The notes under the pieces: model-generated
What the model saw: the letters and a program-made list of their open reading frames with translations, nothing else
The model's database searches: none
What the model was told of the DNA's origin: nothing
Program-made: the position numbers and the translations under genes
Origin: a virus
Strand: one strand, 5' to 3'
DNA length: 64,000 nt
IMG/VR virus record: IMGVR_UViG_3300030060_008361
Coordinates: 22,687 to 86,686 of that record
Shown here: piece by piece, positions 35,794 through 59,800 of the stretch
Layout: each line of letters starts with the position of its first letter
How positions within the stretch are numbered: the first letter of the stretch is position 1

Positions 35794-37626
35794 ATGACAA
35801 CAATAAATACTAAAATTACTAAAAAGAAAGTACCAGTGGATTATACCAAAAAGGGCTTTGAAGAAATAAAAGAAGATTTAAAAAGCCATATAAAAACATA
35901 CTATCCAGATACGTATCAGGATTTTAGTAAATCATCTTTTGGTTCGATGATGTTTGATCTGGTTTCTTATATAGGAGACCAGCTTCACTATTATATAGAT
36001 CACAATGCAAATGAAGCAAATCCAATGTTTTCAAAAGAGGTTTCAAATGTTTTTCAACATATTACAGCAATAGGCGGCCAGCCTGAGACTACAGTATCAA
36101 CTTTTGGACTAGTGGATCTTTATTTGCCAATTCCAGCAAAATCTATTGGAATTGGAGTAGACACAAATTATAATTTTGTTATTCATGCTGGATCAACATA
36201 TAGGACTCAGGGGGGGAACGTTTTCACACAAATGGAAGATGTATCAGTTAACCTGGCAAACTCAGAAATTATTGGACACAAAACAAATACAGATGGGTCC
36301 AAACTAAGTTATTACTTACTAAAAGCAAAAATACCAATCACCTCTGGAGAAGTTAAAGATTTTGTTGTTGAAGTGGGTGAATATAGGAAGTTTTTAAAAA
36401 TAGAAATACCTGATTCTGGAGTGACAGAAATAATAAAAATTCTTGACTCTGAGAAAAGGGAATACTATAGAGTAGATAATTTAACACAAGACACAATATA
36501 TAAATCGGTCATCGACCCTTCTGTGGACAAAGATAGTCCAATTAGGGTTAGATTAAAAGCACAGCCAGTACCTAGAAGATTTATAAAACAAACAGATTTA
36601 GATAGGACATTTATACACTTTGGCTATGGTTCTGGAGGGGACGAGACAACAAACTCTTTAGTTGATCCTTCAAAACTCGTATTAAAAAGAGCTGGCGGCG
36701 AATACATTTCTAGTCCTAAGCAAAACCCGTACAACATCTTAACGTCTAATGCGCTGGGCGTAGCACCGCAAAATACAACACTTACGATAACATACAGAAG
36801 TAACAGCAATCTTAATTCAAATGCCGCAGCAGGAACAATAAATCAGGTTTTAAACCCAATAATGTCCTTTAACAATGAACACTTGCTAGATGAGGCAAAA
36901 GTCTCATATATAAGAGACAATATTCAAATATTCAACGAACAGCCAATTAATGGCCATGTTACAATATCAAATACAGAAGAGTTAAAAAAGAGGCATTTAG
37001 GTAATTATTCATCGCAAGGTAGAGCGGTAACTAAGCAAGATTATATAAGCGCTATATACTCAATGCCATCTCACTTTGGGGCAATTAAGAGAGCCTGTGT
37101 GGTTAGGGACAACAACGATTTAACAAGAAACCTTAATATATATCTAATATCTGAAAGTGCAGCTGGAAAAATGGAAGCACCTTCTTTAATAGTAAAACAG
37201 AATTTGAAAACTTGGATAAATTCTATGAAAATGATATCAGATAGTGTTGACCTGTTTGATGCTCATGTCATTAACCTTGCATTAGATCTTAAATTTCAAG
37301 TGTCACCGAGTTCTAACCCACAGACTCTGCTAACGGAAGTTAAAAGAAAAATTCACGACGAGCTGATGAACATAGCACCAGACATAGGAGAGCCGTTTTA
37401 CATAACAGAGGTTTATAGAATTTTGCGCTCTATACCAGAAGTTGTTTCCGTTCCGCAGAGAGATGGGGTTATTGTTAGAAATGTTGTTGGCGGAGGCAGA
37501 TACAGTAATAACTCCTATGACATAAGGTACAATATGTCAACAGATGAAAGTGTAATATATATACCTCAAGACTCCATATGGGAAATAAAATTTTTGGACG
37601 ATATTAGGGGAACGGTTACAAAATAA
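35794..37626 (+). CDS. Baseplate wedge protein, gp6-like (baseplate J)
   Basis: A 610-residue protein with the opening typical of T4-type gp6: VDYTKKGFEEIKEDLKSHIK, then SSFGSMMFDLVSYIGDQLHY and YIDHNANEAN. Later come LKKRHLGNYSSQGRAVTKQDYI, a conserved Ala-(V/T)-T-x-x-D-Y motif of baseplate J proteins, and a C-terminal PDIGEPFYITEVYRIL-x-SIPEV. gp6 dimers hold the wedges together in a ring. T4 gp6 is 660 residues. It comes directly after the gp25-like gene, as in many contractile tails, and its stop overlaps the next start (TAATG). Confidence 0.9.
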   Translation: MTTINTKITKKKVPVDYTKKGFEEIKEDLKSHIKTYYPDTYQDFSKSSFGSMMFDLVSYIGDQLHYYIDHNANEANPMFSKEVSNVFQHITAIGGQPETTVSTFGLVDLYLPIPAKSIGIGVDTNYNFVIHAGSTYRTQGGNVFTQMEDVSVNLANSEIIGHKTNTDGSKLSYYLLKAKIPITSGEVKDFVVEVGEYRKFLKIEIPDSGVTEIIKILDSEKREYYRVDNLTQDTIYKSVIDPSVDKDSPIRVRLKAQPVPRRFIKQTDLDRTFIHFGYGSGGDETTNSLVDPSKLVLKRAGGEYISSPKQNPYNILTSNALGVAPQNTTLTITYRSNSNLNSNAAAGTINQVLNPIMSFNNEHLLDEAKVSYIRDNIQIFNEQPINGHVTISNTEELKKRHLGNYSSQGRAVTKQDYISAIYSMPSHFGAIKRACVVRDNNDLTRNLNIYLISESAAGKMEAPSLIVKQNLKTWINSMKMISDSVDLFDAHVINLALDLKFQVSPSSNPQTLLTEVKRKIHDELMNIAPDIGEPFYITEVYRILRSIPEVVSVPQRDGVIVRNVVGGGRYSNNSYDIRYNMSTDESVIYIPQDSIWEIKFLDDIRGTVTK

Positions 37627-39452
37627 TGACTATTAAAAGATATAACTCAGAAAAAGATAACACGATTATAAATGCCCTTAGGGAAAACTTGACCGCTAGA
37701 GGTACAGCCGCAAACCTTGGCTCATCAGATATACTTGAAGTTTTTTCTATTTATGGGCAATCAGCCACAAGTTCTTTAGAACAAGCAAGAATATTGGTTC
37801 AGTTTCCAATATCTTCAATTTCTGCTGATAGGGATAGTGGTATAATCCCCGCTTCTGGATCGGTTACCTTTAAATTAAAATTACACAACACTCCACATGG
37901 ACAAACTACACCTAAAAAATACAACCTTATGGCTCATCCGATTGTAAGATCATGGACCGAAGGTGATGGCTTAGATATGGAACAATACATGGACACAGAG
38001 GCTAGCAATTGGATATCTGCTAGTGATGGGGTTGTGTGGCATTCAACGGGTTCGGATTATGCTAGTTCCTCATACGTCGACCCAGATATAGTTCCACTAG
38101 AGTATAAGCAGTATTTTGAGTCTGGAATTGAAAATATTGATATTGATATCACTGGAATAACTGAAGAGTGGATTAAGCATTACAAAGGAACCAAAACAGC
38201 AGCAACTGCAAGTATAAACTTTCTACAGAATCCTTCCGCAGACCAGACTATAAAAATATACTCCCACGAAGGAGAGGAGTATTTTTACACTTTTATAGCC
38301 GGATCCGGCTATTCTGTTAACAATGATGTGTTTCTGCAGTTATCAGGATCAACAGCCGCCACCGCAGAAGCGTTTGAAAACAGAATTAGATCAGATTTTG
38401 CCGGCAAGATTACAACTGAATTTAAAGAATCAGCAACAGTCATAAATTTGACCCAGTCAGTGGCTGGACTTCACGGAAACACTTATATCACAACAAACGC
38501 CCCAGCAAACACTATTAAAGTCGACGGCTTTGGCGGTGGAACAGGTATGCCAAATTATGGACTAATACTAAAACTCAGAGATGATTATGAAGATGGTTCA
38601 AGACTAAGGTCGTACTATACAAAAAAGTTTTATTCTAGAAGTTCTCATGAGTTCTTTCTGAAGCCTAAAGTAGAGGCCCAATGGGATGGTGCCACAAAAG
38701 ACGATAGAAATTATATATTAAAGTCTAGCAGCTTGGCACCAGCAAGCGACAACTTAAACAATATCTACCTTTACAACAGAGTGAGGGGGAACCTGGTAGA
38801 TATACCAAACACAGGTACGAGTATAATAGTTGAATTTTACCCAACTTTAGGAGGCTCTAAAGAAAATATAGTACAGGTTAGCGGACCAGCCGCAGATCAC
38901 GTTTCGGCTAGCCGTGAAAGCGAGGGGGTATACAAGGCAACCTTTGCTTATTCCGGATCAGAAACAACCCTATATGATGTATGGTCTAGATCCACAAATG
39001 GAACAGAGGTTGAGTTGGTTACCGGTTCCGGGTTTACAGTATATACAGATCCTGTAGATGCCACATATTCAGTTCCAGATTATGTAGCAAATATAACAAA
39101 CTTGAAATCTTCTTACTTACAGTCCGAAAAAGCGACCTTTAGAGTCTACACCAGAAATAAAAATTGGTCACCAAATATATACACAAAAGCAACTCAAGAC
39201 GCCCCGGTAAATAATATAAGAGATATGTATTATAAAATAACTAAAGTTTCGGACAATTATGAGGTAATATCATATTCGACTGGAAGTAGTACTAGTTACT
39301 CTTCTCTTTCATACGATAAAGACGGCTCTTATTTTGATTTAGATATGGCGCTTTTACAAAAAAATAATGCCTATGAAATATCATTTGTTTTTAAAGACGG
39401 GGCTAATTATATAGAGCTACTAGAAAAGTTTAGGTTTAGAATTGATCCATGA
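37626..39452 (+). CDS. Tail structural protein with DNRLRE-like domain carrying an inserted domain
   Basis: A 608-residue protein. The N-terminal half has beta-strands such as LEQARILVQFPISSI. The segment ITEEWIKHYKGT, interrupted and resumed as MPNYGLILKL ... SYYTKKFYSRSSHEFFLKPKVEAQWD, is the pattern of DNRLRE/CBM-like beta domains in phage tail proteins. Residues of about 190-309 form an extra domain placed exactly in the loop between KGT and PNYG. The C-terminal part (residues 400-608) has further beta-sandwich-like strands (VYKATFAYSGSE, KATFRVYTRNKNW). It is coupled to gp6 upstream and to the 4501-residue gene downstream by 1- and 4-base overlaps. A baseplate or fibre component is likely. 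Confidence 0.72.
   Translation: MTIKRYNSEKDNTIINALRENLTARGTAANLGSSDILEVFSIYGQSATSSLEQARILVQFPISSISADRDSGIIPASGSVTFKLKLHNTPHGQTTPKKYNLMAHPIVRSWTEGDGLDMEQYMDTEASNWISASDGVVWHSTGSDYASSSYVDPDIVPLEYKQYFESGIENIDIDITGITEEWIKHYKGTKTAATASINFLQNPSADQTIKIYSHEGEEYFYTFIAGSGYSVNNDVFLQLSGSTAATAEAFENRIRSDFAGKITTEFKESATVINLTQSVAGLHGNTYITTNAPANTIKVDGFGGGTGMPNYGLILKLRDDYEDGSRLRSYYTKKFYSRSSHEFFLKPKVEAQWDGATKDDRNYILKSSSLAPASDNLNNIYLYNRVRGNLVDIPNTGTSIIVEFYPTLGGSKENIVQVSGPAADHVSASRESEGVYKATFAYSGSETTLYDVWSRSTNGTEVELVTGSGFTVYTDPVDATYSVPDYVANITNLKSSYLQSEKATFRVYTRNKNWSPNIYTKATQDAPVNNIRDMYYKITKVSDNYEVISYSTGSSTSYSSLSYDKDGSYFDLDMALLQKNNAYEISFVFKDGANYIELLEKFRFRIDP
38193..38552 (+). repeat. Inserted ~120-residue domain, copy C (in the 608-residue protein)
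   Basis: It encodes TAATASINFLQNPSADQTIK at the start and VINLTQSVAGLHGNTYITTN, then FGGGTGMP at the end. It shares with the copies at 42929 and 44390 the order A-T-A-x-I, a threonine-rich strand, a helix with A-x-x-F/I-x-x-x-I, V-x-x-T/N-L/V-T-Q-x-x-x-G-x-x-G-N, and F-x-G-G. It interrupts a DNRLRE-like domain. It is about 40 percent GC on two lines I counted, less extreme than the other copies. Confidence 0.65.
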
Positions 39453-42400
39453 GTGAATATAAAATTTTAGGTGACAACCAAGAAGAGCAAAGAAAACTTA
39501 CAATTCTTGGCTCTGGAAAGTACGAAAGAATATCTGCTGATAGTAATGCTGCCTTCAACGAAGCTGCTGAGTCGAACAAGTATGTTGAAGAGTACAAGAA
39601 ACTAGTTGAAAGAGTTTTACCGAATATAGACACAAGGGAGCCGAGCACTTTTGCTTTTTATGGTAGTGCAGAAAAGTATTATGAAAACTCCTTCAAATAC
39701 ATTCAAAATTCATATCCCTATGATGGCTCAAGACTGGAAAAAGTACAATGGTCCCTCAGCGCATCAGCAATTGATTTGGCAATACTTCAACATGAGTACC
39801 CAAAAGAAACCGGCTTTGTAAACTTTTCTCCATCCGGATGGGGCACAATATCTACAACGTCTGGTAAGTATGGTCTACCATCAACACAAGAATACATAAA
39901 ATTTTCTGGAGGGCCATACGTTGGATCAGTATTTGATGCTTCCACCGGCCGCGAAAGCGGACTAAAAATAAATCCAACTCAAGGAAACACTTTGGAGTTT
40001 TGGCTTAAGAAAGACGAGTTTGCCACAACAAAGACAGATTCAGAGGTGGTTTTTGATTCCTATACCATTGACTACGCCGAGGGAAACTCTTCTTACGGTA
40101 GATTTTTGCTAGAAGTTTCCTCAAGTGCGAATTCGCCATTTTATCTAACATACATGTCAGGCACAACAGGAATCAACAGAAGTCAAATCGGAGCCGGCAC
40201 TACAGCTGCTACGGTAGCAGATGGTAACTGGCACCATTACGCTTTTGTTGTGTTTCATAGCAGTTCTCATCTTTATACCGAGCTTTATGTTGACGGCAAA
40301 TATGATTCAACTAAAACAACAGCTATAGCTTCAATGGGCGATGTAGAAGACTATTTTAACGGTACAATTGGCGCTCTGGCTACAACAAAAGATTCCCAAG
40401 GTGGCTTGGGGTATGGTAAGCTTGATGGATCTATAGATGAGTTGAGGTTCTGGAAAACAAGAAGAACAGCAAAGGATGTAGGGAACTACTTTGACTTCCC
40501 GGTTCATGGGGCAACAGACAAAGAACAAATAAACAGCATACTTGGATTGTACTATAAATTTAACGAAGGCGTACTATCGGACCCAAGCGCAGATAAAGTA
40601 ATTTTGGATTATTCGGGAAGACTAAACAATGGAACTTTTGTTGGGTATACGTCTTCTTCTAGAAATACAGGGTCGGCTATAACATTAAGTCAAGACACGG
40701 TAACTACAGAAAAAGAACTAGGGGATCCCATAATAAACTCCAATTCGAGCAAAGTTACATCAGCCTTACAGGTCCTGAAAGATATCGCGAGCCCTCACGA
40801 TGAATATAATAATTCCTCTATATTTAAATCTGTACCTCAATGGGCTTATGAGCCAGCGGCCGGCTCCAGTAACTTGGACAGTGAATTTTCTATTTTACTT
40901 CAAACGATGGCAAGCAAGTTTGATTCAATAAAACTTTTGATAGATGGTATACCGAGACTCGGGTTTAAAACTTATTCAGACTTTACTTTTGCAAAAGGGT
41001 CTGTAAATTATACCCAAAACTTTGGTACTCTTCTTGGGTGCCAAAGCGACTTTGATATAGCATTTAGCAACCTTGGAGAGACTGATAAGTTTTCAGCTCA
41101 AAATCTTCTATCTAGAAACTTTGATATTCTGGAATTACCCATAGTAAATAAGTCAAATTTAGACCAATATTTGTATAATTTAAAATTTTCTAAGACCGAT
41201 CCTACAACCGGGTTAGGGTCTTTCTTAGTGGATTCAAAATCAGAAGACATAAAGAATAAGATTCTAAACTCTATTTATGTAAATCTAGATAAAATATACA
41301 ACACAAAGGGAACTCTATCTTCTTTTAGAAACTTGATTCGGTGCTTTGGTGTTGATGAAAAGTTGATTTCCCCAAATATGTATGGGAACAATGAGCAGAT
41401 ACCGATCGATAACACGCCGTTTATTGAGCCTGTTGATATAAACGCTCTGTGCCTAGATGACAAAAACAACCAAGTAACACTTTTTCAGTCCTCTTCTACA
41501 TCAACAGAAGATAGGCACTATATAGAAGGTAAAAGTTCTGGACCGATTTCTTTTGAGACCAGAGTTATATTTCCAGAAATGGACTTATCTTCTGTAAGCC
41601 CAACGACCACAAATACTAGTATCTTTGGATTAAACCGAACAGAAACAACGCACATAGGCATTCCAGCTGCTAATCACTGCGGCTTTAGGGTTAGCGCTGT
41701 AAAGCAATCTTTACACCATAAATCAGCATACTTTACTTTATCTAGCTCAGCCGGAATTTTTGATGAAATTACGACAGACTATTATAACAATGTATACAGC
41801 AATTCAAATTGGCACCTTTCTGTAAGGTTCTCAGAAGACACGTCAGTAAAACTATCAGATTTTAATGTAAAGGGCACTAAAAAATATAAAGTAGAGTTTA
41901 GTGGGCATCATTATGATTTAGATGTCTTACTTCATAGCTTTAACTTGTCATCATCAATAAGCCAAGCAAATTATTCAAACTTTATACAAGCTAATAAAAG
42001 CGTATTCATAGGTGCTGAAAGAGCAGATATAACAGGATCATTAAGCAAAAAAACAGAGTGTAAATTCTTAAACTTTAATGTATGGGATGATTACTTAGAA
42101 AATACAGAACTTAAAACGCATGCTCAATCATATAACAATAACGGTCGCCTGCTGCCCATGCAGCAAGTCGACAATAATCAATCTGACACTTCATTAAAGG
42201 GTGACACGCTTGTTTTAAATTGGCAATTTGAAAACGTGTCGTACAACGACACTAACACAACTTTGACAGTCACAGATAGCACTAGTGGGTCTTTAGGCGA
42301 TGTAAACAAACTCGGAGTAATCAAAGGGTATAAATACCCAGGAACTACAACGGCTTATGGCAATAAGGCAGATATAGTAGATAAAGAACATTTAGGAAAT

Positions 42401-45400
42401 ATTACATACAAAGAAATAGATAACTTAATATCTCGCCCAAGAGTTGAAATAAAAGAAAGAGAAGTTGACGTTTTCAAGCTTGACAGTAGACCTGTTTCTT
42501 ATACGTTTTCTTACGAAAAAAGCATGTATCAGATTGTCTCTAGAGAGATGCTTAAGATGCTTTCGGGTGTTTCCGTATTTAACAACTTGATAGGAGAGGT
42601 AGTCAATAAATATAGGGTTGATTACAAGTCACTTGAAAAATTAAGAGAAAGATTTTATAAGCAAGTAGAAAACGACATAGATTTTGAAAGATTTGTAGAG
42701 TTTTATAAGTGGATGGATTCATCCCTTGGGGGCATGCTTGAACAATTACAGCCGGCTTCTTCTAATATGAACCTTGGAATTCAAGACGTCGTTGAGAGTC
42801 ACGCTCTTGAGAGAAATAAATATGCCCACATGCTTCCTACTTTTGAGCACAAGGATCCTAAAATTGAAGGACAAATATTAGGTATAAATGAGCTTCTTTA
42901 CGACTGGGAACACGGCCATGCGACTCCACCGGCAGCATCTACCGCAACAATCACTTTTACCGGAACCGTCGCTGATCAACCCGAAGCTCTAATAATAACC
43001 TCCGTAGACGCAGATGGAGCAAGGACAACGAAAACTTACCTGGCAGCCGGCGGAAATGATGCCGCCAGTGGCCAATTCGTCCGTGAGGGTGGCGTCGCAG
43101 CCACTGCAGCTGGTCTTAAAGCAGCGATTGAACACAACGTGCGTGGCCATGGCAACAAAATCACAGTATCAGTTGACGGAGGCGTGGTAACCTTAACCCA
43201 AGCGGCAAAAGGCAAAGCTGGTAATGTATCCATCGGCGGAACCTTAAATAGTGATGGCAATGCTTCCGTATCAGGCTTCTCAGGCGGCACTGGCCTAGAC
43301 CAAGCTGAAAACTGCCTTTGGTGGCAAGATAGAGCAGAGAGAGATGGAGTGCTGACAATAGCAGGCGCACCAAATAACAATAGAGAAATCCTAAGAGAAA
43401 GGACAAATAATATTTCTGTAAGTGGTTCAACTTATGTCTTGCGTAAGCTTATAAGACCATATAAAGTAACAATGAATAAATCAACGTTGCTAGATATGGG
43501 CTCCAACAGAAATGCTAATAAAATACAAGGTTTCTACAAAATAGTAAACTCAAACCCACAAAAACAAATAAGCTTGAGTAAGAGCGATATATACGAGTTT
43601 AAAAAGTGCGACGATGTTACAGACCCACAAAAAGAAAGGCTGTATGTTGCAAAAACTAATACGACAGGAACATCTGGCTACCTGGATGTTGATGCTGATG
43701 CAGCATTTCCGTTTAGTCTTTATAGTTCATCAGCTGAAAACAGGCAAGATTTTGCGGTTTTTCAGGATGGTTTAGCAGTAACCAACAATCACGATGACCA
43801 AAGAGCGTCCTTACAAGGTCCGTTTGTTAGAGAGAATGTTGGTGGTATGCCACACAGAAGGGTAAAATTTGGAACAGATAAGGATGAAAGACCAGAAGCA
43901 TATGCTCTTTCGGCTAATAGTAATACTCTAACACTAAGCAGAGTGCCTCTAGGGTCTCCTAAATCACAAATCTCGCTTGGCCAACAAGCGGTATATAACG
44001 TGACTAATATAAAGACAGACACCTTATCTAGTGTTAAGAAAGTTGGAAACTATGACAAAGCATACGAAATAGTACAAATAGCCGGCAGAAAGTTAAACAA
44101 CAGGCTCTTGACTATTAGTAGTAGCATACCTAACAGCCCAATAAGGGCGGGCTTTATAAAGGATACTGTTGATTATAAAATTGCTGACCGACCTAGAAGC
44201 GAGCATATTTTTGTAAGTAGATTTTCATCTCCCGGAGGCCCAGAGACCCATGCTGCAGCTGCCAGAGATTTTGAGTCAGGGGAGCTTTCAATATACAACA
44301 CAGTAAACTATAGAAATTTATCAGTAAGGCAGCCACTAAACAAATTACATTCAGAGAAAAATGAAAAGTCAGGCTACCGTCTGGGCCATGGCACAACAGC
44401 TGCAACTGCAACTATAAAAGTCACCGACGCCGGCGGAGTGGGCCACGGCGAAGTTTTTAAATTGTCCACGTTTAACGGTGTTGAAATTACATACACCATT
44501 AATGGCGGAGTTGCGCAAGCAGCCGGTGGCGGCTCTGGCACCTCTGCAACAGTCGGTTTTTCAGGGGTTGGCGGCGGAGCAACCGGCAAGGTTAATGCAG
44601 CTAGCGCTATTGCTATAGCAATCAATGCCACCACCGGCGCCGGCTTCATAGCAGAGTCAGATGGTGTTGATACTGTTACAGTGACACAGACACAACTAGG
44701 CGCCATAGGAAATAGAGTGAATGTTGATACAGTTAGTGGCGTAACTATTTCAAACTTTGCTGGTGGAAGTGATGGCATGCCATCTGTACATATGACGAAC
44801 AGAAACTTATTCCACTCAGTTGTGGACAATGAGATTGACAACGCCGCAACAAAATCAGACAATTTCTATGCTCAGCACCCAATACCACAAAATGACATTC
44901 AGTATGCTTGGATAACTGCTAGTACCACAACAGGAAAAACGGACTTTGTAGAAAATAATCTGGGCTTTGGCCACCAACACACGTATTCTACTGGAAGTAA
45001 AAAAGCTTTAGAATTTACAACTAGTAAGACATTCCAAAACCCTGTACTGGTACAGGAGTTTATCGGTTCCGGCTCTGTAGCGGATTCAAACCCAGCAAAT
45101 ATGCTTGGGTATTCTATCACTTCTCATGGTGACTACGTGGCTGTTGGCGAGCCTGATGCGGTAATAGATGGGTTTAGAGAAGCCGGAAAAGTACATATTT
45201 ACAAAAAACTAGCAGGAAGATTTAAAGAAGTACAAGTGCTTCAAGGTTCTGATGCTCGCAGCGGCGCAACGAGTAGTGAAAAACAGTTTGGCTTTTCGGT
45301 GTCTATGAAGAAAAATATACTTGCTGTTGGCTCAAGGCAAAGTAATACCGCTAGTTACGATGATGGCCATAACGCTCAAGGTAAGGTTGTAATCTTTGAA

Positions 45401-48400
45401 AGGCTCGGCGGCTCTGACTCTTGGACACAAACAAGAGAAATCGGCCCGCCGACCACTCATGCCCAAACATACAGCTATTTTGGACAATCATTAGAATTTT
45501 CACCAGATGGAGAAACACTAATTGTTGGCGCGCCTGAGGATGACACAGTATCTTCTAATCATGGAGCAATAATAGTTTTTGATAGATCAAGCAGATATCA
45601 GTTTACTCACTTTTTAACATCCTCAGCTGGCACTGCTGATTCACAGATTGGCTTTACAGTATCTTTCGGCAAAACAACAGACAATATAGAAACTATCGCA
45701 GCAGGAGCACACAGACTGGATGGCGGTCGCGGCAAAGTAGAGATTTTTGAATATAAATATATCGATGCTGCAACAGGCACAACGTGGAGAAATACACAAA
45801 CTTTAACAGCACTAGATAACAATGCCAATGATAATTTTGGTTATTCTGTAGGCATAGAGAGTGATTACCTTGTTATTGGAGCACCAGGAGACAATTCTAG
45901 CCTAGGTTCGGCATATATTTTTCAAAAAATTGATGGGACTTGGAAGCAGATACAAAAGCTCAACCCAAAAGGCGTAACAGGATCCTATAGGATTGGATAT
46001 AAAGTATCGATAAAAAATGGAGTCATATATCTTGGAGGCTATATAAATGATTCAGACGCTCAAGGGGCAGTCTTAGTTTATGAAAAAATAGGCTCACAGT
46101 GGGCTGAAGTAAAGACAATACTAACAACTGATTATGATAGAGTCACCGAAGATGGAACTACTGATGTAGAGGCGTTTTCGATAGAGATACTACCTGTTGA
46201 TGATCTTTTGTTTGTGGGTGCCTCACGAACAACGGTTAGTTCTAATATAAAGGGTTCTCTTTACATACTGGAAAGAAAAGGAAAAAGCTGGGCAGATGTA
46301 CAAGTAAATTATGCCGGAATTAATTTGGGTATTGTTGAAGAGGTAGATATTGATAACAACACTATACAACCTCTGACAAAGACTACGATAGGTCAGTTGT
46401 TGCTACATAGGCAGGGCCCATATGGTTGGCCAACCTGGAAACAGCTCAGGGGGTATCAACACCCAGTTGCCAGAGCGCACAAAAAAAATAACATATATTC
46501 AGTTGCTTACATAGAGCAGTACCCAGATCCATTTGAGTTCAACAGAAAATCAATACTCATGTCTGGAAACAGTGCAGATTCAACATATTTAGAAATTGAT
46601 AAAACCAGGGAAATATTTAAAAATAAATCAGAAATATCTTTATTTGCTTGGATTAAACATCCGCAAGCTGATGACTCAGAGTCACACAACCTTTTCGCTA
46701 TAAACACAGGCACAGGTGGCAATCGATTTGCTTTTTCGATAAAAGGAACACAAGCTTATACTTTTGACGCCCCCGGTGTCCTTGCGATATATCAAACTCC
46801 GAATGTTGGCTGGAAAATGTCATCCGGTATTCGCATCGACGACAACGAGTGGCACCACATTGGATTTACTTACAGGCAGTTAAGTACAACCTCTGGAGAA
46901 ATAGAACTTTTTCTGGACGGAAAATCACAAGGCAGTAAAATAACAGTTGGTGCTTTCTCTAATATAGTCGATGGCCAAAAAGATAAAGTTAGTATTGGTC
47001 ATGAATTCGACGGATCACTAACTACTAGTGATTTTTGGAAAGGGTACATATCTGATTTTGCAATTTGGGACAAGCAACTTACAGATGTTGAAGTTGCAAG
47101 CCTAATAAGGCATGAAAAGCCAACTGATGACTCGCGATTTCGAGGCCTTGCTAATCGTTTTCACCCTGAAAATAAATCAAAAGCAGGTCTGAAATCATTC
47201 GGACCAATCGATTTACGCACACACGATACCTTTAATAGACTCCAGGTTTGGTATAGGATGGGTGATGGATCCCGAAATAATTTAAAAGATTCTATAAAAG
47301 CTAGATTTTTAACTGTCGAGGACTCTATACACAAAATATACAACAACGCCAACATCGGCAGCCGCGGCTACTATCATGCCAGGCCAACAGGCTCGGCCAG
47401 CAACCAGAGCATGACCATTGTAGACGTGAGGAACGAGCTACCAGGTACTGTAATGAATAGGCATGCCCAACGAGACCGTCCAAACGGCAAACTACAATAC
47501 AGGTCTCAATTTGGCAACCCGGCTCTCAGCCCGGGCATGAACAGCGGGTATCGATACGCCCGGGACAGCATGTTCCGAAAAAAACTTACTGGAATGTTCG
47601 ATGTAGAAAATCCATATGAAAGAGCAAGATACTTAGATGATCACGGACCTAAAGTTGAAGACTTGGCCACAAACAACTTTGTGTACGGTACCGTTTCAGA
47701 CCACAGGAGAAATGTTAATTACAAAGACATACCAGTAACAGAAAGATTTAACCCGATGGTCATGACCGTACACTCAGAAAATGCCCCATTGCTTTTCCAT
47801 GACCCGGAAAATTTAAGGGTCATACCAGGAGAGGCGTTTCAGTCAATAGAAGACCCCAGAAGCCCAAGGCATTTCGATGTGCGCCACAATACAGAAGATA
47901 TAGATCAGCAAAAAAGAGAATTGTCTTGGAACCTAGACCAAGCCTATTATGCTTCTTTTACAAAAAATGTCTCTTACGGTAAAAAAATTGACCTTTGGAA
48001 AGACAACCCATATATGACGCCTTTTGGCCAAGTTGGAATTAGAAAGACATTTCAAAATGATATCACTACTTTTGCTGAAATGCTAATATTGACAGACTCC
48101 AACAAAGAAGAAGACAAACGTAATACTTTCACTCCTCTTTTTAATAATATAATTAAAAAGAATGATGAGGGAAATAAGAAGCTTATAGAGATAAATTACA
48201 TAGAGAAGATATACCCTAGAGAAATTAATACTTTTACAAAGCATGCCCGTGAACGAGAGCAATATGATTTTCATGGATGGAAAAAATTACGTGATAATAG
48301 AAATGTTCTTTTAAGTGGTAATGTTAACCACTTTAATGACGAAGCGCTTCTTAAGTTGTCTACAGTTTCCGCTTTTCCTCACTATACAACTAACGATGAA

Positions 48401-56800: not shown

Positions 56801-59800
56801 ACAAGCAGTGTTGGACTCAATATTGAGTAATGAGGACTTCGATATAATTAGAGAAAATACCAGAGATAATAATGATAATTTTCTCTTTAGGGAGGATGCG
56901 ATTCCTCTTCTTGCGGATACTATTGCAAGATCAGTATTTATGAACGTATACATTGAGCCGGCTTCGATGGCTGACGCACTGACTCCTGTCCCTGATCCCA
57001 ATGCCATCACTTCCAACGGCTTCATACCTCGCCAAAGATTCTACCGCGAAGAGTCTGACTCTTCCGGCGCGTCAACGACGACTCAGACTGATACAGGGAA
57101 TACTGAAACAGAGACAACCATAAGCGAGCTTTATGCTTCAGGTCAGTTACATGCCGCGGGCGAGGCCACAGCCAACGGAGATTTATCCGAGCCTCTCGGT
57201 ATTTTCACTGTTGGTGGCGCCCACGACACCGCTATCGCTGCCGGAGGCCTTGATCTTGGCGCTATCCTTTCATCAACAGGGCCAAGTTTAGCCGGCGGCC
57301 CCCTTGCTGCTGGTTCACTCGGTGCCGGCTTATTTGCTGGGGGTGCTGTTACTGGACTGGCGGGGCGCTCGGAGGCAGTGGGCCCGCCAGCGGATTCGGA
57401 GGAGGGTCACCAATTGGCTATTGAAGATATTTGCAAAATTCCGCCACCACCACCACCTCCACCTGGAGGGCAAAATGGAGGAGGAAACCAGCCTGGGAAC
57501 GGTGAAGAAGGAGATGGCGTCCCAGAAGTTGTACCACAACGCTTAGAAGCGGGACAGGCGCCTTATCCGCAACCATACAGGCCAGTTGGCAATCAAAATC
57601 AAGGAGCACTTGGTAATGACCATATACCCAGACCCGGCACAACACCTAGGTTCGCCGCGGCCTCAAGAGAGATAACAACTATTCCTAGTCAATTCTTTTT
57701 ATCACAAAACTTTAACACACAGTTGGTTTATGAAAGATTGGAGATGCACAAACCTGAAAACGAAAGGGGTAAGAGGTCGCCTTTTCATGGAAGTGTTTGG
57801 TTCACTAATCACAGACCAAATCCGCAACCAGATAACATATCCGATGATGCAGATCTCTTTCGCTGGAGTCAAATGGCCATATGGGCATCTGATAATAATT
57901 CTGAGAAGTTTTTTATGCCAGCCCTTGCCTTTGCCCCGAACCTGACGGCGCTTGGCATTCTCGGTATGTTTTTTATCAATGATCTAGATTTTTACGAAGA
58001 TCTCTTAGAACAGCTTGGCATTCCCCTCGACCAATTGCCATTGCCAATAACCAAGCCGGCCAATCCTGTTGGTATTATTTCGGATATGCCGAACTGGCCC
58101 GAGGCGCCCATATTTACGGTGTCCCCCTTCGCCCCAGCGAGAGGGGGAGTCGGTGGCCTTGATCTGGCGCCAAACTATACATTGGAAAATGTTATAAATG
58201 TTGTAGGTCCAATGCATACTACAGAAACATTGTGGTTTAGTCTTCTCAACAGAGGCTTAGTCGGATCCGCGGGCATGCCTGGCTTTACTGTTAATGATCG
58301 ATTAACCTTGGCTGGAGAAAAGTTTATAGAGAATATGTTTCCTAGCGCAATAAAGAATAGTAATCAATTATCTGAAAAACAAAAATACGATATGTTTTTG
58401 GAGATATTTTTAAATGGCAAGGAGTCTGGTCAATGGGATCAATTTACTAATCTTCCAAACTCTTTTAGTTCGACAGAGGATTATTATAGAACCCCAAATA
58501 TTACTAGGGGCAACCTATACTTAGATTACGTTTTTGATGCTCCTGTTGCTTTTTTTGAGGATGAATTAAACAACATACTTCTTTCACCATTTCATAGTGC
58601 AAAAATAAAAGTACAAGTAGACAATGTAGAAAACTTAGTATCTGGTCGATTTAAAAACATACATCAGATACCTAATTTGTATTACTATTACAATTTTTTG
58701 GAAATAGAAAAAAAATATGCTAAACCAGGGGGAAGACTAACAAGGGGCAATATAGGAGACAGGGTACCAGAAGGTGAATGGGATTATGTTATCACAACAC
58801 TTTCTATTATTGACGAGTATCGCAAGCATGGCCGCATAAGAAAGAGTGAATTAGAGACGCCGCGAACTTTAAAATTCCCCTCAGACAGAGTCAAAAACCT
58901 GCCACAAGTTAATGAATTTATAAAAAAATATGCTGTTAATTTTGTTGAAATAACAATAAACACTAAGCAGGGCGGGCCGATTAATGCCATGCTTCAAAGA
59001 AACAAAATGGACAGAGTTGTTTTAGAAAAAATGGCACCATCATATGATTCGATTAACGAGGCACCACCGAATGATTTTTTTGGAATAGGTGCCATTGACT
59101 CTGCTCTTATTAAGTCAAGTACTTATGTTTTAGATGACTCATTCCTAGGGATAGAAGAAGAGGGTAATCAAAACTCTATTTTAAATACTATTAACGATAG
59201 AACAGAAAGTTTTGTACATACAAAAATGGTACCTGGGCTCTTTAAAAACCTTAAAGATGATATACTGGCTGCGGAGGGTCTTGAGTATCAAGAGGTTGAT
59301 GAATATAGTTATCCTCTAAGGTACACCCATTGTGAGGATAAAAACTTACTAAAACTGGAAGAATCGATTAGAAGCCAAATTTTTATGTCACAAGCAGAAA
59401 CTTTTATTGCCGAGTCTTCTGTAGGCAGAAATTATGCTAATATTTTAGAAGGAAAAAAAGCATATTCAGAAGTTGTAGGATATAAGGTTAGCAAGTTTCA
59501 GTGGGACGAAGAGAGTGAAACATACTCAGATCAACCAGTACAAGAATTGTACTTTATGGATAGTGATGAAGTAGAGACAATTAGCTATGTAGATACCCAG
59601 GTTTTACCATTTACTAAATATAAATATTCCATAGAAACAATAAACTTAGTTTTAGCGACCAGGTACGAATATACAGGAGTTGCCATTCAATCTCCACAGT
59701 TTCAAATATCAGTGGTATCACATCTGGATCCACTTTTGATCACCGCTCCTTTTTATGAGGAAGTGGTAGATGTTATAGACCATCCACCTTTGGCTCCTCA

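Follow-up and report, generated by a model that had tools for sequence, protein, structure and literature searches.

An unnamed protein domain occupies three sites in two adjoining tail genes of a virus record and, as we judge with a probability of roughly 80%, represents a surface decoration that recombination at the domain boundaries has carried from one phage genome to another and that selection has retained. The stretch of DNA analysed, referred to below as the window, is 64,000 nucleotides long and corresponds to positions 22687-86686 of a 97,256-base virus record. The two host genes, located downstream of two baseplate wedge genes, and the three domain copies are the following:

37626-39452, + strand: host gene p1, a DNRLRE-type structural protein of 608 amino acids, assigned through its homologue L008, which matches NF033679
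39449-52954, + strand: host gene p2, a giant tail-associated protein of 4501 amino acids with LamG-like and FG-GAP segments
38202-38540, + strand: domain copy A (HMM limits; block 38193-38552), in a p1 loop before NYG, HMM match at 3.4e-29
42938-43288, + strand: domain copy B (HMM limits; block about 42923-43297), in p2 between DWEHGHA and DQAENCLWW
44402-44767, + strand: domain copy C (HMM limits; block 44390-44783), in p2 between SGYRLG and PSVHM

The HMM limits agree with the block positions proposed in the initial annotation of this DNA, and within the window the profile search found only these three copies. A further copy suspected by eye near 50.6-51.0 kb of the window received no support from the profiles. 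A fourth copy, missed by the initial annotation, lies upstream of the window at G000 C1:4997-5380 (= L003:1321-1704), in a small free-standing open frame of 207 residues far upstream of the tail genes. The DNRLRE character previously attributed to p1 holds through L008, whose match to NF033679 (5.7e-9) extends over residues 140-205 and covers the empty A site. The p1 protein of the window itself gave no NF033679/DNRLRE match, and a fold search with the whole of p1 returned generic beta-sandwich matches only.

Starting from six copies, the seed profile converged on 102 hits, which represent 75 unique copies and come from 67 of the 168 sources. Since the window copies were part of this seed, the homology test was repeated with profiles that contained no window sequence. 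A leave-out HMM built only from p2-type copies of other viruses found A at 1.1e-16, while the HMM built only from p1-type copies of other viruses found both B (9.4e-14) and C (8.6e-10). Reversed proteins, used as a control for these profiles, gave zero matches. When site-A copies and p2 copies were compared profile against profile, the E-value was 1.1e-17. The same pattern had been noticed by eye at the three sites, and these non-circular profiles confirm its homology: by profile comparison, A, B and C are one domain family, homologous beyond chance. The family is translated and constrained, with a median dN/dS of 0.087. The predicted structure of B (pLDDT 87, pTM 0.83) contains a 13-residue helix. 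In the predicted p1 model, A forms with high confidence a unit of its own, set between a helix and a strand of the host, and its order of strands and helix is the same as in the B model. The domain has about 113-120 residues and the element order beta-beta-beta-alpha-beta-beta-beta-beta.

Homologues lacking the block were found for each of the three sites. L006-L008 lack copy A and have a continuous host sequence, and L004 and L005 carry it. A copy is present at site B in L006 but not in L004 (a region 68% identical), L005 or L008, and at site C in L005 but not in L006 or L008. Removal of each block therefore rejoins a host segment that exists uninterrupted elsewhere, as had been supposed from the window alone, and the block-less homologues identify A, B and C as insertions into loops. 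The nearest filled/empty pair, L122 and L119, differs by a clean insertion of about 118 residues, the p1 match continuing on both sides of the inserted domain. A copy is carried somewhere by 37 of 136 distinct p1 homologues, at positions about 140, 195-199, 216, 305 and 352, and by 31 of 153 p2 homologues, at ten or more positions in a giant-protein alignment that is approximate far from the conserved parts. At site B, empty in 111 of 122 distinct hosts, the empty state is mostly an 8-residue linker and the filled state consists of the domain and a variable linker. In L014 (6448-7200), the first copy at site B seems to be followed by another, more diverged one before the host resumes.

Such a distribution would also arise if the domain were ancestral at these sites and had been deleted in the homologues without it, a possibility that suits copy A best. 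In the domain tree, 17 of 24 site-A copies fall into one weakly supported group. This grouping suggests that A is old and mostly vertical: judged from its relatives, copy A is an old insertion common to related viruses, and the mobility initially proposed for it is not supported. The B and C copies are scattered over the same tree. At least 9 changes are needed to place site B on the host tree, 5 of them forced by well supported branches, although the trees do not give the direction (gain versus loss) of single changes. The nearest relatives of window copy C, 67% identical, occupy site B in L327-L329; upstream, the host protein there has only 31-46% identity to that of the window. The nearest relative of window copy B is a 60% identical copy in L248, the flanks of which show no detectable similarity to any of the window tail proteins. 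With nearest relatives that occupy different sites or different proteins, B and C are, on this phylogenetic evidence, copies that moved between sites and proteins, which contradicts ancestral presence and loss for both. That explanation is further weakened by the absence of B from the great majority of hosts and, as described below, by DNA-identical blocks in unrelated surroundings and by one copy interrupting another; as a general account we find it unlikely. Movement between sites is also seen in L024, where copies at sites B and C of one protein are 76% identical in DNA and have unrelated flanks. The three window copies are not recent, as their best relatives are only 52-67% identical, contrary to the recent mobility first suggested. 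A search for a near-identical DNA donor of the window copies found none.

Base composition had been regarded as a second sign of mobility, copies A and B being given as 53 percent GC. The measured values are 42.2% for A, 53.4% for B and 50.8% for C, in a window of 38%, so that the earlier figure is right for B and wrong for A. Taken at face value, the contrast between B and C and the surrounding window would fit recent foreign GC-rich DNA put into an AT-rich phage. However, the GC content expected from the copies' own amino acids and the codon use of the host is 49.3% for B (z = 2.3) and 48.8% for C (z = 1.2), against a control with a spread (SD) of 1.28 in which 6% of windows reach z = 2. Glycine and alanine make up 33-35% of B and C versus 14% of p2, and this richness accounts for their high GC, the excess lying within the spread of ordinary windows. 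GC content was thus ruled out as a sign of foreign origin. Given in addition the low GC of copy A and the lack of a near-identical donor, a recent foreign source for the window copies is very unlikely. The sole other GC-shifted stretch of p2 lies at 47249-47660 of the window, with a third-position GC of 0.54 and a codon-adjusted z of 4.6, a composition that is not accounted for by its amino acids. A part of p3 (56895-57500) has 56-60% GC and encodes an Ala/Gly/Pro-rich linker with a proline run, in which the domain is absent.

Transfer at the DNA level was revealed in a sister ("hot") subfamily. The copies of L015/L016 and L117 align over 351 nt without a gap at 91.5% DNA identity, within flanks that are 43% and 34% identical as protein. 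Searching with this copy yielded 80 loci, of which 75 gave profile hits, and the 69 full-length copies were clustered by flank similarity into 23 surroundings, some of which may be different sites of related giant proteins. The length is exactly 339 nt in 60 of these 69 copies, and 339-nt gapless pairs in unrelated surroundings reach a DNA identity of 91.7%. In 17 pairs of surroundings (at least 82% DNA identity), identity stops 0-12 nt beyond the same edges, with a mean extension past the edges of 1.7-1.9 nt versus 0.5 nt for unrelated positions; in the recent cases it covers the domain and nothing else. From these alignments, the moving unit in the wider family is a DNA block of about 340 bases coextensive with the domain. 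The initial description of DNA cassettes from another source therefore stands as regards a domain-length DNA block and falls as regards a foreign origin read from GC. Silent sites are saturated in most cross-context pairs (median dS 1.47), which limits the directly visible recent transfers to a handful of pairs with dS of 0.18-0.5. Silent-site divergence thus describes an old family under strong constraint in which a few transfers are recent (dS about 0.2), rather than a single recent burst. Strong purifying selection would also sharpen the edges of old pairs under any mechanism.

Nested copies, one interrupting the other, occur in both L171 and L216. Joined together, the halves of the interrupted copy reach 75.8 bits, with 74% identity to the copy inserted between them. 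In the same two loci (L171:2053-3996 and L216:1990-4008), the insertion lies in the hairpin of the other copy, apparently within a third. Besides p1 and p2 relatives, the host proteins include tail sheaths (L186 and L203), a phrog_376 tail protein (L210) and a Tail_P2_I protein (L198). Four copies, two of them in tandem, are present in one tail protein at L198:1510-6213. The carriers are uncultured, mostly marine phages. Together, the filled and empty sites, the many hosts and the DNA blocks found across contexts bear out the proposal that the domain spreads in frame between phage structural genes.

Every locus comes from metagenome assembly, and short shared blocks can mislead assemblers, so that chimeras between phage genomes with common sequence might imitate such transfers. 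We consider this extremely unlikely: each insertion is flanked on either side by parts of a single host protein within one long open frame, several surroundings recur across independent samples (five for L219-L223, four for L181-L183 and L187, three for L188-L190), and the window copies are too diverged to produce chimeras.

A more serious alternative is a dedicated mobile element, transposon-borne or intein-like, for which an enzyme supplied in trans would carry out precise excision and insertion. Ends fixed within about 12 nt in the recent cross-context pairs, the predominance of a single exact length and the self-nested insertion are what such an element would leave. Against it, neither flanking direct repeats or target duplications nor terminal inverted repeats exceeded controls in 20 surroundings and the three window copies. 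Third codon positions at the block ends are no more conserved than those inside, and a DNA recognition motif is thus not seen. No reverse transcriptase was found in G000 or in 20 carrier records (up to 190 kb), which may be fragments, and no GIY-YIG gene in the same 20 carrier records; these mostly hold one copy each, not many. Without repeats, an end motif or a mobilising gene, and with one copy per record, recombination and selection are favoured over a dedicated enzyme, which we regard as improbable, although the sharpness of the edges in the few recent pairs counts in its favour. We likewise give only a small chance to a protein-coding mobile element of fixed 339-nt length that has no enzyme of its own, inserts exactly in frame and is able to insert into itself.

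In the preferred reading of recombination and selection, phages would add the unnamed domain to exposed loops of their tail proteins. Transfer would take place between phage genomes, for example in co-infected cells, by recombination events whose breakpoints coincide with the domain edges or fall close to them. The domain is predicted to fold on its own and to carry edge strands at both ends, properties by which in-frame insertions into loops would be tolerated and remain viable. Less certainly, selection may retain it as a surface-exposed decoration or a weak adhesion module.

No consistent family model was found in Pfam, PHROGs or NCBIfam when the hosts and 58 members were scanned, WZC_N and other named families scoring below their cut-offs. 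Zero tblastn matches were obtained for B, C and the hot subfamily in 50,697 cultured phage records, as were zero relatives of the hot subfamily in bacterial and archaeal genome contigs, and no description of the domain was found among open-licence papers. The nearest solved sequence relative is residues 91-181 of Milano gp20 (a weak profile match, E 0.0027), followed in the PDB by residues 96-181 of 9hz7 (E 0.02, also weak). In Milano gp20, residues 91-203 constitute the external sheath extension domain (PMC10811340). The phrog_165 tail sheath family was matched by 5 of the 58 members, at best at 2.2e-4. As the sheath extension domain faces outward, the likeliest role of the family, by analogy, would be that of an exposed decoration or adhesion module. 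The extension domain of Milano/7-7-1-type sheaths is likewise inserted in a larger body domain, but the window copies lie in p1 and p2, not in a sheath, and only the L186 and L203 copies are located in sheath proteins.

At the level of folds, no PDB match reaches an E-value of 0.001. The best, 9p7r (E 6e-3), and also 4nx9 and 9m6i, are inserted domains of flagellin/FliD with TM-scores of about 0.44-0.50; the second hit is 9rku, a 7-7-1 baseplate chain (E 0.053), and predicted phage tail proteins are matched as well. The hypervariable inserted domains of flagellin/FliD resemble ours as optional surface insertions and as the best PDB fold match, and differ by the low TM-scores, their occurrence in cellular proteins and the lack of a sequence family hit. 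The AIN...V-LTQ...G pattern presumably recalls the flagellin IN motif.

Several known systems share part of this behaviour. Fraser et al. in 2006, a work cited in PMC10684548, reportedly described promiscuous Ig-like domains in tailed-phage structural proteins. Like these, the present family is a small self-folding surface domain, horizontally spread and optional in many different structural proteins; unlike them, it has another fold, with a helix, and lies inside loops as a DNA block of fixed length, with nested copies. Neither the window copies nor, within the families listed, any of the 58 members gave an Ig family match, antibody folds matched the model only at E-values above 0.5, and one of 24 subfamily members had a weak ig hit at 0.023. 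Rickettsia palindromic elements are short palindromic DNA inserted in frame at many unrelated places of coding genes, a mode of insertion found here as well, whereas the present unit has no inverted repeats and encodes a folded domain under purifying selection. An intein was excluded, as the splice residues (N-terminal Cys/Ser, C-terminal His-Asn then Cys/Ser/Thr) are absent and the ends are ATATI and F-x-G-G. A DNA transposon or MITE was set aside on terminal inverted repeats and target duplication not above controls, and a diversity-generating retroelement on the absence of a reverse transcriptase from G000 and the 20 carrier records. Smug et al. 2023 describe a continuing exchange of protein fragments among phage proteins, those of the tail included (PMC10684548); the words "marine" and "illegitimate" do not occur in the main text of that paper. 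The high-identity fragments found here in otherwise unrelated proteins are of this kind, with the difference that one specific unnamed domain is the recurrent unit and has fixed ends.

Phage proteins are known as mosaic. To our knowledge, there are few cases in which a domain has been caught entering the interior of a structural gene that stays intact. Here, one unnamed family shows together filled and empty sites, repeated fills, sharp-edged DNA transfer between genes and self-nesting, and thereby offers a natural test system for the origin of in-frame domain insertions. It provides an annotation for a portion of marine phage tail proteins that had been unclassified, points to candidate loops of these proteins that tolerate added domains, and shows how phages re-decorate their tails.
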